Shown here: piece after piece, positions 49,873-59,977 of the stretch
Layout of the letters: every line of letters begins with the position of its first letter
How positions within the stretch are numbered: position 1 is the first letter of the stretch
Assembly: GCA_026184775.1 (NCBI GenBank)
Contig: JANCYW010000005.1
Span: forward strand, 124,001 to 188,000
Reading direction: 5' to 3'
DNA length: 64,000 nt
Source of the DNA: Cyanidium caldarium
Taxonomy: Eukaryota > Rhodophyta > Bangiophyceae > Cyanidiales > Cyanidiaceae
Notes under the pieces: generated by a model
Told to the model about the DNA's origin: nothing
The model's database searches: none
What the model saw: the letters and a program-made list of their open reading frames with translations, nothing else
Translations under genes and position numbers: made by a program

Positions 49873-51855
49873 CTATGCACCCTCGATGAGCGCTTGGCGT
49901 CGCTTCCGATAGCGCACCTCCACCACCAGGAAGAACAGCGCGGTGGCCAGCAGTAGCGTGCCGAAAAAGGTGCCGAGCACGATGCCGGCTATGCCGCCGC
50001 CCGACAGACCCGACGAGGATGCCGACGGCGAGCCGCTCACATACGATTGCGAGCCGCGCGCTGCCACCGCCACCGTCACATTCTGCAAGTAACCGCCCTG
50101 GGCGCGCAGCGCTCGTTGTACTGTGGCGGCCGAGTCCGACAGCGCACTGGCGATGTCGGTGAAATTCGGCGAGTACACTTCCACCGCCAAGAGCACGGTG
50201 GGGCCGGCGAGTCCGGGGGCGCCGGCCGCCAGGCGCTGCACCGATGACGGTCCCGGCGGGGCCGGTGCGTTCGACGCTTGATTGCCCCGTGACGGAAAGT
50301 AGACGTACACGTCGGCTACAGACGTGCCCGTCAGCTGGGCCACTTCCCGCTGCACCACCCCGAGCGCGGCATCCAGCACCACCCGCACCACGTGCTGCAC
50401 TCCGTACACGAGCCTGGCGTGGGTGCCGCGACGGTGGCGTGACACGGCCGTCGCCAGCGGACACCGCGTCGCGTTGCCCTGCATACGTCGGTAGTAGTGG
50501 AAGGTGTAATTGGGCAGCAGATGCGGGTGAAAGATGCGAATGTGGTCTTTGAGCACCCAGTCGGGCCGCAGCACGCCCTGCTCGAAGATGGGGTTCGGGT
50601 CGCTGTGCTTGGTGTAGTCGTACAAATTATCGCACAGCACCGCAGCCCAGTCGGCAGCGTAGGAGTAGTTCTGCAGCACTTGCGCCACGGTGGTTTCGGG
50701 GGGCGTGGTCACCGAGAAACCCAGCCAGAAGCGCGAGGTGTTGGCGCCGGCCAGCGCCAACATGCGCCCGGCGTCCGCCGACGTCAACGACAGCGGATTG
50801 TCCTGCTGCACGTCCTCTTGCAACGCTTGCAGCGGCGACGGTAGCGGCTCGCCATGGTCACCGAACACGTAGTAGGCGTTGGCGTCTGTGATGAACGACG
50901 CCTGATAGGTGCTGCCGAAATAGAACGAATCGCCATACCCAGTGCCGTAGAACACCGACGGCTGCGTGCGTGCGGTGGCCGCCAACGCCGCCGCCTCCGC
51001 ATAACTCTCGGCAATGTCATTGAACTGGCGAATGGTGTACGGCGCCAGACCGTACAACAACCCGAACAACTTGACGTACTCGGCGCGACCGAGCGCGCTC
51101 TTCTCCTGCGCCTCGCCGATGCCCAGCACCGAGACGTTCAGAGCGGTAGTATTGAGGGTGCCGTTCACAACCAACCGCGTCCAGTTGTTCACGGTGTCGG
51201 TGACGATCAGCACGTCGATGGGCATCGAGCCGTTGAACAGCCGGAACAGCTGCGTGAGGTTGCCGTAATTGCCGCTGCAGGCATAGGCGCCCGGATGGGT
51301 GAATTCGCTGATGCTGGGCGCGCAACCGCGGGCGTATCGCGCATCGCACAGGTCGGACGGCACGCTGGCGTTGCACTGCCACCCGACAATGTAGGAGGCG
51401 TTCACCAACTGCACATACAGCTCGTCGGTGAGGTCTTCTGGCGTCAGCACCGCTCGCACCGAGTACGGCTGCACCACGCCGTACAGAATGTATCCGGCCT
51501 GCAGCGTATCGGTGAGCGCCACCCCGCGCGGCGGCACCGCATGCACCTGAAAGTAGTCGCGCTCGTGAAAGTCGGACACGTCGCTGGAGTTGAATCCGCA
51601 GCGCACAAAGGCGTGTCGGCGCGGCGTGCCACCAGACGAGTCCACCAGCGATAGCGCCGCCCAGGAGCCGTCCGCAGCGACCGTGTAGTTGCTCATAGTG
51701 CTCGTGTAGTTGAGCGGGAAACTCTGCGGAAAAGTGACCGGGTGCGACGAGTCACACTGGTCGTACACCCGCGCGTCCACCCAGGGGAACCGACAGAAAG
51801 TGACGAGTAGGAGGAGGAGCAGGAGTCCGAGCACCGAAACGCACTGGCGGTGCAT
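49873..51855 (-). CDS. Surface glycoprotein with a BtuF/TroA-type substrate-binding domain, CBA1-like
   Basis: 660 residues from MHRQCVSVLGLLLLLLLV (51855), a textbook signal peptide. Residues about 40-460 carry more than 15 N-X-S/T sequons. They also hold blocks of the bacterial metal/cobalamin substrate-binding family: SVLGIGEAQEKSALGRAEYV, PSVFYGTGYGDSFYFGSTY, and GVLRPDWVLKDHIRIFHPHL followed by LPNYTFHYYRRM. A second small domain (residues about 470-610, VADVYVYFPSRG and LQNVTVAVAARG) precedes one membrane helix (IAGIVLGTFFGTLLLATAL) and a short RYRKRR tail. The plan matches algal CBA1, which mediates B12 uptake. The ligand here could equally be iron or another metal complex. Confidence 0.85.
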   Translation of the reverse strand: MHRQCVSVLGLLLLLLLVTFCRFPWVDARVYDQCDSSHPVTFPQSFPLNYTSTMSNYTVAADGSWAALSLVDSSGGTPRRHAFVRCGFNSSDVSDFHERDYFQVHAVPPRGVALTDTLQAGYILYGVVQPYSVRAVLTPEDLTDELYVQLVNASYIVGWQCNASVPSDLCDARYARGCAPSISEFTHPGAYACSGNYGNLTQLFRLFNGSMPIDVLIVTDTVNNWTRLVVNGTLNTTALNVSVLGIGEAQEKSALGRAEYVKLFGLLYGLAPYTIRQFNDIAESYAEAAALAATARTQPSVFYGTGYGDSFYFGSTYQASFITDANAYYVFGDHGEPLPSPLQALQEDVQQDNPLSLTSADAGRMLALAGANTSRFWLGFSVTTPPETTVAQVLQNYSYAADWAAVLCDNLYDYTKHSDPNPIFEQGVLRPDWVLKDHIRIFHPHLLPNYTFHYYRRMQGNATRCPLATAVSRHRRGTHARLVYGVQHVVRVVLDAALGVVQREVAQLTGTSVADVYVYFPSRGNQASNAPAPPGPSSVQRLAAGAPGLAGPTVLLAVEVYSPNFTDIASALSDSAATVQRALRAQGGYLQNVTVAVAARGSQSYVSGSPSASSSGLSGGGIAGIVLGTFFGTLLLATALFFLVVEVRYRKRRQALIEGA

Positions 51856-52178
51856 CCTCCGAGGGTCGCCCGGACACCACCACCACCACCACCGACAACA
51901 ACAACCGCAACGCTCATTCGATGGCAACATGAACCCAATGAGTTCAAAGTCACTCCCGCCATCCCATGCCCAGACACACACGCGCTTGGTGTCAGCTCGC
52001 AGCGTACAACACCGCCGCAGTCCCGGCAGACAGCCACTGTCGCGTCGCGCACGACGCCGATGGAGCGACGGCGGGACACGCGCGCAGGGCGGCGTGTTTC
52101 GGATCCATCGAGCGATCGATCGGCGACGTGTGCGCGCTTGACACCCGCCGCTGCTCCACCAGTTCGAGGCGGTGTGTC

Positions 52179-52736: not shown

Positions 52737-53825
52737 TCATTGCCGTACATCCACCAACACCGCCCGCAGTAGACTCGTCAACAGTGCTAGCATGGGTGCG
52801 GCCACGGCCACTTGCGACCAACCGCGCGGCGCCCGACGCGGCAGCTTGTCCAGTGCCACCATCAGTGCCGCGATAACGACGTACTTGGTGACTTCGAGGA
52901 AGCCCTCGGCTGCGAGCGCGTTCGGCCCGGACGGTCCTTTCATCCGCGATGTGCTGCCCATCGACCACACCAGCCGCTCGCCGTCCCACATGAATAGCGG
53001 CGTGCCGTTGATGATCCAACCGTGTCCGCCGCCCACCACAAACATGTACAGCAGCAGCACCAACGCCAACCAGGTGTATCGCCGACGATGCAGTCCGGAG
53101 TAGAGCGCCGCGGTCACCGCACTGGCCAGTGTCGCGGCGCACAGGCGCCAGTGTCGTCGCACCGCCGGGACCACGTACACCGGCCCGCCGATGGTGATGC
53201 GCAGCGGCGGCGCCCGTCGGTCCGTCGGCACTGCTTGATTGGCCAACCGCAGCAACCAGGCGGCCATGGCGCGCCCGTCCAACCCGTCTCCCTTGGGCGG
53301 CGCCTCGAAACGGAACGGCACGGTGCTGCTCACCGCCGAGTCGCCGCCATCGCCCGGCGGCACATATAGCAGCGTCGGCAACACGTTGACGCCCAGGCGC
53401 GACAGCGCCGCGATCATCTCGCGCTGATTCGCCGCGCCCACATCCGCCAACAGAAAGAACACCTGCAGCTGTCCGCGCCCTGCCAGTCGCTCGTTCTGTC
53501 GCTTCACCGCGCGCGCCACCGGCATCAGCTGGCGCACCACGTAGTCGCACAGCGGGCACGCGCCCGGCTGCGATGCCGTGCTCAGCAACAGCACCACAGC
53601 ATAGTCGCGCGGGCCGCTCAGCACGAACTTTTCCAAGCTGGACGCGTGTCGGACGGGAATGAGACCGCTCTCGCTGCGGCCGCGGTGCGCTGCCAGTGCG
53701 GATCGACGGTCCGCCGGTGGCCCAGGCACTTGCTGGCCGGTGACGGAGGCACGGCCGAACAAGCAGAGGCCGACGAAGAGGAGGAGAAGGAGTCGATGGG
53801 CAAAGGACACTTGGCGGTGTTGCAT
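52737..53825 (-). CDS. Oligosaccharyltransferase subunit OST3/OST6 (thioredoxin-domain)
   Basis: 362 residues from MQHRQVSFAHRLLLLLF (53825), giving a signal peptide ending near residue 30. A lumenal thioredoxin-like domain follows, with ACPLC (Cys90/Cys93) as its CxxC redox pair in VLLLSTASQPGACPLCDYV and VFFLLADVGAANQREMI downstream. Four membrane helices occupy residues about 215-360, including YTWLALVLLLYMFVVGGGHG and WIINGTPLF. This agrees with OST3/6 and MAGT1/TUSC3 topology. The subunit holds glycoprotein cysteines near the N-glycosylation site. A sequon-rich glycoprotein is its neighbour but that is probably coincidence. Confidence 0.88.
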   Translation of the reverse strand: MQHRQVSFAHRLLLLLFVGLCLFGRASVTGQQVPGPPADRRSALAAHRGRSESGLIPVRHASSLEKFVLSGPRDYAVVLLLSTASQPGACPLCDYVVRQLMPVARAVKRQNERLAGRGQLQVFFLLADVGAANQREMIAALSRLGVNVLPTLLYVPPGDGGDSAVSSTVPFRFEAPPKGDGLDGRAMAAWLLRLANQAVPTDRRAPPLRITIGGPVYVVPAVRRHWRLCAATLASAVTAALYSGLHRRRYTWLALVLLLYMFVVGGGHGWIINGTPLFMWDGERLVWSMGSTSRMKGPSGPNALAAEGFLEVTKYVVIAALMVALDKLPRRAPRGWSQVAVAAPMLALLTSLLRAVLVDVRQ

Positions 53826-54095
53826 GACGAGAGGCGTTAGGTTCTCAGTCGAACCAGACGAGCGCCACGCTGCCGACGCCGCGTTCCTGCTCTTCTGCAT
53901 CGTCCGGGCGAAGGTGCAGCGGACCAAAGTACGCCTCCTAGGTTAGGAGAAGACTGGACAGGTAGAGAGCGCCAAAGACAACGAGCGGCCGTTTACACTA
54001 GCAAAGCGTGCACACCTCGAGAGATCCCCGCCGTCCTGCTGCAGCTCGGTGCGGCTCGGGAGCGCTTTCCAAGCGGCGTGTCGATCCTGAGTACG

Positions 54096-58586: not shown

Positions 58587-59636
58587 TCACCATCCGCGAA
58601 TCACCGTGCCAGCCCACTGTTGCAAGGACGGATGCGCCGCATACGTCAGCGCCACGAACACCGCCACGCCGAGATAGGCCGGTCGCCGCATCTCCCGCAG
58701 CGCCGCGCGTAGCGACTGCCGCCGCTGCCACACGCTTCGGAACGGCCACAGGCTGGTGCGGTCGGCGTACGCCTTCCATGCCGCCGCGCCGTACCGTTCG
58801 CGCAGCCGCCGGTCGCCGTGCCAGGCGGCCACGAAATGGTGACCGATCAGCGCGCCGCCGATGCACAGCGCCATCGAGCTGCCGATCCAGGCGCAATGCG
58901 CCACGCACCACAGCACCTGACCCCACAGCTGCGGATGCCGCGTCAGGCGCACGATGCCGGTTTCGTACAGCCGCAGCGTCGGTCGCTGGATGGCGGCCAC
59001 CTCCAGCAGCCGGAAGGTGGCCGGGTAGAGGAACAGGAACGACAGGCCGCTGAGCGCGCCGACGGCGGTGTGGAAATGCGGCAGCTGTGCGCGCAGCGCG
59101 TGCAGCGTCGGGATGAGCAGGCCGTCGTAGCGGTGCGCGATAAAATAGGCGATGCACAGCACCGCACTGGGTAGCGAAGTGGCCGCGAAGCCGATGCGGT
59201 AGAGGCGCTCGCCGATAAGCGGCACCGCCCGCGACCGCAGCGCCGCCCCGCCGGAATGTAGCACGGCGAACAGGGTGTACAGTCCCAGCAGGCGATAATG
59301 GGTGGTGACGTCCAGGGAGGGAGAGGCGGCGTGGAGGGCGGCGGGCAGCAGCAGCGCGCTTCCGTAGCAGGCGATGCCGATCCACAACGCCGCCTCCGAC
59401 TCGCGTTCACCTTGGTTATAGGAAGGAGAGGAGGGTACGTCGGAAGAGGAGGAAGAGTGTAGATGCAGGAGGCGGTGAGGGAGAGTCGGTCGTCCGCGAC
59501 GAGTTTGATGGGAACGAGCAGCGCACGGCGAGGAGGTGATGCATGGTCGCGAGCTTGCCGGCCGTCGCGTTCGTGGACAAGCAAGTGCGGCAAACGCCGT
59601 CAGCACTACGTATCGCGGCACCGCGGCGCTTGTCAT
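58587..59636 (-). CDS. 15-cis-zeta-carotene isomerase (Z-ISO)
   Basis: 349 residues from MTSAAVPRYVVLTAFAA (59636); an in-frame ATG at 59696 is the alternative. Z-ISO isomerises 9,15,9'-tri-cis-zeta-carotene in plastid membranes using a haem cofactor, within carotenoid synthesis. Residues 1-70 are Ser/Arg/Pro-rich (transit-like). The NnrU-related membrane core follows, with LHSGGAALRSRAVPLIGERL, FIAHRYDGLL, LFLYPATFRLLEVAAI, ETGIVRLTRHPQLWGQVLWC and IGHHFVAAWHGDRRLRERYG; the conserved His residues in RHPQ and GHHF are present. It is strong evidence for a plastid. It ends 16 bp from the ISWI stop. Confidence 0.95.
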   Translation of the reverse strand: MTSAAVPRYVVLTAFAALACPRTRRPASSRPCITSSPCAARSHQTRRGRPTLPHRLLHLHSSSSSDVPSSPSYNQGERESEAALWIGIACYGSALLLPAALHAASPSLDVTTHYRLLGLYTLFAVLHSGGAALRSRAVPLIGERLYRIGFAATSLPSAVLCIAYFIAHRYDGLLIPTLHALRAQLPHFHTAVGALSGLSFLFLYPATFRLLEVAAIQRPTLRLYETGIVRLTRHPQLWGQVLWCVAHCAWIGSSMALCIGGALIGHHFVAAWHGDRRLRERYGAAAWKAYADRTSLWPFRSVWQRRQSLRAALREMRRPAYLGVAVFVALTYAAHPSLQQWAGTVIRGW

Positions 59637-59977
59637 GGGATCGTCTTGACTCGAAGACGAGAGAATCCAGGCAATCCGTCGGCTCTGGTTGCTCATCCAA
59701 CGCGGTGAGGCGCAGGAAATAGTCAACGCCCGGAGAGCAGAACGTGGTAGCGCCGACAGACCCCGACAGAAGCGCCCGCCACCCACACGCACTTCCGCAA
59801 GCGTTCCGGCACGTTCATTCGGGTCGCTTCCTCCCCTCGTCTCCTCGCCCTGATCAGCTACAATGCCCTCTGTTCATGCCCGGTCGACAGACCGGTGCTC
59901 ATAAGAAAGAGAAGTCGTTTTGTGTTGCTACATAGGCATGTTTCATCACATCAGGACACTCGGCTCTCCCATCCCCC
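59637..59977. other. Intergenic region upstream of Z-ISO
   Basis: 341 bp between the Z-ISO start and the acireductone dioxygenase stop, both on the minus strand. Presumed Z-ISO promoter. I see no recognisable element. Confidence 0.5.

Follow-up and report, generated by a model that had tools for sequence, protein, structure and literature searches.

A candidate surface receptor for corrinoids, related to BtuF-type proteins, in the red alga Cyanidium caldarium

The present study concerns P0001, the predicted product of an intronless open reading frame (ORF) in the red alga Cyanidium caldarium, and its possible role in the capture of vitamin B12. The window is a stretch of 64,000 nucleotides from contig JANCYW010000005.1, and the ORF lies on its minus strand, from an ATG at 51855 to 49873, with 660 codons and a stop. 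P0001 has the predicted fold and the homology of a substrate-binding protein, in a layout that ends with one membrane helix, and the genome of the alga carries a methylmalonyl-CoA mutase and CblA- and CblB-type genes and gave no match to a FecCD permease. With slightly better than even confidence we infer that P0001 is a surface receptor for corrinoids (B12) which works without an ATP-binding cassette (ABC) importer, its ligand, its place at the surface and its route of uptake all belonging to that reading.

Fold, homology and layout

Both predicted fold and homology support placing P0001 among the class III substrate-binding proteins (Peripla_BP_2 / TroA-like). The model predicted from an alignment that included bacterial relatives shows a long helix connecting its two lobes; an AlphaFold model from five red-algal sequences only reached a predicted local distance difference test score (pLDDT) of 40. 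An earlier note on this locus, made from the letters alone, had proposed a substrate-binding fold of bacterial type. The two-lobed class III model and its structural matches bear out the fold, one lacking the two lobes not being the outcome, and homology with Peripla_BP_2 bears out the family; no placement outside all substrate-binding families emerged.

Profile-profile comparison with the bacterial relatives gave a probability of 99.8 and an E value of 2.7e-29 over 355 columns, which include the N-terminal beta region. When plasmids were searched by tblastn, the core of the red-algal relative P0006 matched 24 records at E<=10 (best 1e-20) and P0001 matched 16 (best 1e-13); the matches listed (20 and 16) are mostly annotated as ABC transporter substrate-binding proteins, and some are unannotated. 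Six bacterial relatives served as queries for a scan of prokaryotic genomes that gave 590 confirmed stretches, of which the best 80 were kept; by blastp P0001 matches 79 of these 80 loci (best 96 bits) and P0003-P0006 match all of them. The Pfam model PF01497 was passed by six bacterial relatives and by two of six long proteins described below. P0001 itself matched no Pfam family at E<=10, hence did not reach the PF01497 cut-off, and the best values for the five red-algal members were 0.0075 for PF07696 (2/5) and 0.078 for PF01497 (2/5). Because fold and homology both place P0001 in the class, the PF01497 miss is taken as a limit of the reach of that model. A profile search of the PDB gave a best E of 0.14, to a membrane helix, and a scan of genome contigs with sequence set A3 gave 28 pattern matches and no relatives. 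In the second lobe E259, E425, D437 and HP443-444 are invariant or nearly so in a 12-row alignment, as are E259 and D437 across 64 rows.

P0001 shares its N-terminal beta region and the blocks of its second lobe with the cyanobacterial branch of BtuF (Anabaena alr4031; loci L005, L006, L009 and L011). Unlike BtuF, its gene is solitary, with no permease or ATPase beside it, and the protein carries a cysteine-bearing insert, heavy predicted glycosylation and, beyond the binding domain, about 200 extra residues with a membrane helix, an extension exceeding 19 residues in 0 of 80 bacterial rows. The span with the insert is 72 residues long in all 5 red-algal rows, as compared to 35-37 for the six long proteins and 33-37 for the 80 bacterial rows.

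The remaining parts of the layout claimed earlier were also recovered. The predicted signal peptide, called from hydropathy and the model, contains a hydrophobic stretch at residues 5-23 with a mean Kyte-Doolittle value of 2.48. More than 15 N-glycosylation sequons had been reported, and 17 were counted, as compared to a mean of 3.6 and a 97.5% point of 7 in composition shuffles; P0003-P0006 have 14-16, and the 80 bacterial relatives have a mean of 2.3. Both quoted sequence blocks were located, a second small domain is predicted with block pLDDT of 75-93 except in a loop (about 521-550) that is modelled poorly, and a single C-terminal membrane helix is indicated by model and hydropathy (Table 1).

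An initial search of the protein collection yielded six entries, namely P0002, which was omitted as the window's own protein, the four relatives P0003-P0006, and P0007, which was dropped from set A2 onward because it mostly follows a different frame of this gene. A profile search of the collection gave the same six proteins and no more. The four relatives are Cyanidiophyceae-type sequences (P0005 is from Cyanidiococcus yangmingshanensis) that align along P0001 at 47-93% identity. Acquisition of the gene by C. caldarium alone was rejected, since orthologues occur in these other sequences. P0007 is an EukProt entry, a public model of this gene that appears to be misframed over a large part, which may conceal the gene from proteome-based surveys. 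Searches of the open-licence PubMed Central literature listed no title or abstract start describing this protein.

Gene neighbourhoods of the bacterial relatives

The loci of the bacterial relatives lean towards cobalamin. A cobalamin-type riboswitch lies upstream of the binding-protein gene, on the same strand and within the flank, in 7 of 9 plasmid loci and 22 of 33 genomic loci (9/11, 9/11 and 4/11). The genomic sample scanned with Rfam, 33 loci out of 80, comprised about every second one with a long upstream flank. A BtuC-type permease gene stands directly downstream in 69 of the 80 loci and elsewhere in 2; none was seen in 9, and there is less than 1 kb downstream in 5 of the 80. L007 and L012 carry cobalamin-salvage genes. 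In L011 the order is DUF1636 protein, TonB receptor, ferredoxin, binding protein, permease and ATPase, which matches the Anabaena btuB2-btuFCD cluster as given in the available part of PMC10878165. Two published btuF primers map into the binding-protein gene of L011 with 0 and 2 mismatches, and a published alr4032 primer, one of three tried, has no site in L011. Of the ligands proposed earlier, cobalamin or a metal complex, cobalamin is the one towards which the bacterial relatives lean, by their riboswitches, and it would extend to P0001 itself by kinship.

It was also observed that in three cyanobacterial clusters, L005 (5461-6348), L006 (5636-6508) and L011 (5585-6457), a gene annotated as ferredoxin-like or Fe-S-binding separates the TonB receptor from the binding protein; in L009 a hypothetical protein takes its place. 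Two Bacteroidota plasmid relatives, in L010 (6401-7615) and L013 (6401-7627), are possibly solitary binding proteins, as their stretches hold neither a permease nor an ATPase, and no cobalamin riboswitch lies upstream. The L010 relative is surrounded by fimbrillin genes.

B12 use and a possible uptake route in the alga

The C. caldarium genome (8,787,356 bases, 20 contigs) codes for METE, and no METH was found over cut-off, a 24-bit match being a homocysteine S-methyltransferase; this answers the METE-versus-METH check which the earlier note had proposed. A methylmalonyl-CoA mutase with a B12-binding domain is present (contig C3, 426987-427325 and around, L004), which makes a need for B12 plausible. 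The genome also gave matches to Cob_adeno_trans (6e-47) and MeaB (5e-75), and an LMBR1-domain protein as a domain match only. An MMACHC search of the genome had 0 matches, and its control likewise 0. Among red algae, Galdieria is the only one named as having the mutase in the available part of PMC11439496.

No genome match to a FecCD/BtuC-type permease was obtained, and the eight scanned neighbour genes are unrelated, with no permease or ATPase adjoining; an importer next door is rejected on this ground, and the absence of an obvious ABC partner noted earlier holds. With no FecCD match, a bacterial-style hand-off looks closed.

P0001 could be a single-pass membrane glycoprotein at the cell surface or in the secretory/endosomal system, with an outward or lumenal domain that is a divergent class III protein related to the cobalamin-uptake proteins of BtuF type. 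Outside the cell, the two-lobed domain would catch cobalamin or some other corrinoid, and the small domain and single helix would anchor it to the membrane. The small domain might also be the coupling part, as the earlier note suggested. The loaded receptor may then be internalised by membrane traffic, or the ligand passed to a different carrier, either route being proposed for want of a BtuC-type permease match. The corrinoid would finally supply the mutase, the one B12-dependent enzyme found. With METE and the mutase present and no METH found, methionine supply should not depend on P0001, so its deletion may be viable and measurable. How algae carry B12 after binding is described as an open question in the available part of PMC10828217, and P0001 is a candidate receptor in this respect.

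Comparison with CBA1 and the question of the ligand

P0001 appears to resemble CBA1 in outline, the two being compared via published residue numbers only. Like CBA1 of Chlamydomonas and Phaeodactylum, as far as the available part of PMC10828217 describes it, P0001 is eukaryotic, has a predicted signal peptide, one C-terminal membrane helix and a BtuF-like fold, and has no transporter part of its own. The same part of that paper gives 16 residues conserved across CBA1. Twelve of them could be assigned in P0001 from the published numbering by spacing alone, K78, P118, L136 and G289 remaining unplaced. P0001 has the equivalents of E206, P251, V253, F395, E396 and D408 and differs from CBA1 in its lack of the FFN.E block (F214, F215, N216, E218), W255 and W394. 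F is found at CBA1 position 215 in P0004-P0006, and the block occurs in 25 of 78 bacterial relatives with a readable site. CBA1 in algae co-occurs with METH, unlike the combination of METE and mutase without METH in C. caldarium. The CBA1-like character claimed earlier therefore survives as a layout and fails at half of the placed residues.

Several observations weigh against a corrinoid as the ligand. The top structural matches of the model in the PDB bind heme, siderophores and iron complexes, and W255 and W394, the CBA1 residues around B12, are Y303 and I423 in P0001. The upstream riboswitch is missing in 11 of 33 genomic and 2 of 9 plasmid loci, all of these counts being without a random-locus baseline. 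In NCBIfam, with all scores far below cut-off, heme IsdE outscored BtuF for two cyanobacterial relatives, L006 (1.4e-12 vs 1.5e-8) and L009 (3.6e-10 vs 5.9e-7); BtuF outscored IsdE for L005 and L007, and nothing was found for L008. The bacterial relatives from which we infer the ligand share about 30% identity with P0001 in the second lobe. An Anabaena btuF mutant shows wild-type-like cobalamin uptake, in contrast to btuD and btuB2 mutants (available part of PMC10878165), and C. merolae 10D, a relative of the alga, is listed without B12 enzymes in the part of PMC11439496 cited above. The PF01497 search of the genome was silent even at the P0001 gene, so that a divergent permease could be missed too. 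The main gap concerns Cyanidiococcus, which has this gene and may or may not have the mutase.

The structural matches, the two cases of IsdE among five bacterial relatives, the substituted tryptophans and the iron-complex names carried by many database relatives would all suit a receptor of the same layout with another ligand, such as heme, a ferric or other metal chelate, or another tetrapyrrole. We regard this as unlikely, though deserving of serious weight. A fold in common says nothing decisive on the ligand, which is not readable from it; cobalamin riboswitches stand upstream of many relatives; and C. caldarium has a B12-dependent mutase. It should also be noted that iron stays dissolved in acidic hot springs, which would make scavenging of its chelates less pressing there.

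Long relatives and the tree

When the query was limited to the second lobe of P0004, the search yielded 188 matches at E<=1 and reached further than the whole query. Six long proteins from outside red algae (P0012, P0023, P0033, P0035, P0041 and P0118; 486-631 residues, P0023 being N-terminally fragmentary) were chosen by length among the 120 matches listed. P0035 is an EukProt entry, and the other five are labelled eukaryotic-type from their layout alone. Like P0001, they have the binding domain and a C-terminal extension with a helix near its end; unlike P0001, they have no red-algal insert and fewer sequons (4-11). The sequence after the binding domain is 193-213 residues long in all 11 red-algal and long rows, and at most 19 in the 80 bacterial rows. 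Cysteine at C408 is found in 11/11 of these rows and in 0/80 bacterial rows; cysteine at C465 is likewise found in 11/11, and the bacterial proteins end before that position. A disulphide between the two would be a guess. Comparison of the membrane-proximal domains of P0001 and the long proteins by hhalign gave a probability of 2.9, which leaves homology unsupported.

Set A6 held 59 of the 80 loci. A quick tree of 63 rows (including 36 loci and 16 other bacterial proteins) and a careful tree of 42 rows trimmed to the binding domain (including 25 loci and 7 other bacterial proteins), both unrooted, place the bacteria on one side and the red-algal and six long proteins on the other (Shimodaira-Hasegawa-like approximate likelihood ratio test 100; 100/100). 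Of 200 bootstrap trees, 12% unite the six long proteins alone in one group. The branch to the red-algal rows is long, with 2.19 changes per column, and this together with the lack of a root means that a single bacterial-lineage origin is not established.

The YxxPhi motif is an endocytosis signal. Within the last 45 residues it is present in five of the six long proteins and in 0/5 red-algal proteins, and the genome of C. caldarium has three adaptor mu-type matches. The YxxPhi motifs and the mu-type matches make receptor-mediated uptake plausible for the wider group; for C. caldarium it is unproven. Tentatively, and at rather less than even chances, P0001 and the long proteins could form a second eukaryotic family of corrinoid receptors distinct from CBA1, with members among acidophilic red algae and further protists, which would combine the binding domain with an extension of about 200 residues holding a small domain and one helix, be tied together by two cysteines unseen in the bacteria, share ancestry with the BtuF-type branch and feed the mutase without an ABC importer. 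P0001, CBA1, BtuF and the six long proteins offer a natural comparison of which receptor parts matter. The C-termini of P0012, P0023 and P0033 have a common tail ending KDxFWxEHGVRLAED, which was seen neither in the remaining long proteins nor in the red-algal ones.

It could also be that the fold was kept and ligand binding lost, P0001 now serving in adhesion, sensing or a surface coat. The long branch, the heavy predicted glycosylation and the loss of residues 267, 269 and 271, conserved in many bacterial relatives, would agree with such a change, and altered function has been suggested for CBA1-like proteins of B12-free streptophytes (available part of PMC10828217). We consider it quite improbable, as the second-lobe blocks around E259, E425, D437 and HP443-444 are near-invariant and orthologues retain 47-50% identity.

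The gene and its surroundings

That the long ORF is an artefact of reading frames in GC-rich DNA (the window averages about 65-66% GC) is hardly credible, for although sequence searches with P0001 alone found nothing in Pfam or NCBIfam and nothing convincing in the PDB, and the opposite strand also holds long overlapping ORFs, four Cyanidiophyceae-type orthologues align along the whole ORF, bacterial substrate-binding proteins are matched significantly, at E 1e-13, and the binding domain is modelled confidently, so a chance ORF was rejected. The endpoints given earlier for the locus stand; its strand, then unstated, is minus, the plus-strand reading having 7 stops. Searches of the own genome with P0001 or a cyanobacterial relative led to this gene only.

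Table 1. Features of the P0001 gene, in window positions
Feature	Position	Strand	Basis
Whole ORF, 660 codons plus stop	49873..51855	-	ORF call; alternative upstream ATG at 51930 would give 685 residues
Signal-peptide-like N-terminus, residues 1-28	51772..51855	-	hydropathy; model helix 2-20
Predicted substrate-binding domain (class III, two-lobed), about residues 40-460	50476..51738	-	model, structural and profile matches
Insert, about residues 135-197, low confidence; Cys 161, 170, 178, 193	51265..51453	-	model, alignment
Motif GTGYGDSFYFGSTY, residues 304-317, second lobe	50905..50946	-	sequence
Motif LRPDWVLKDHIRIFHPHLLP, residues 429-448	50512..50571	-	aligned with bacterial (R/N)PD.VLADLIKI.HPELLP block
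Predicted membrane-proximal small alpha/beta domain, about residues 475-606	50038..50433	-	predicted structure
Predicted single C-terminal membrane helix, about residues 619-642	49930..50001	-	model and hydropathy
Short basic tail, residues 643-660, without YxxPhi motif	49876..49929	-	sequence

A transfer RNA scan of the window found none. A gene for OST3/OST6, an oligosaccharyltransferase subunit, lies at 52737-53900 on the minus strand, near that of the heavily glycosylated P0001, which is probably a coincidence. An NnrU-domain protein (PF07298, 2.9e-31) is encoded at 58587-59696, also on the minus strand.
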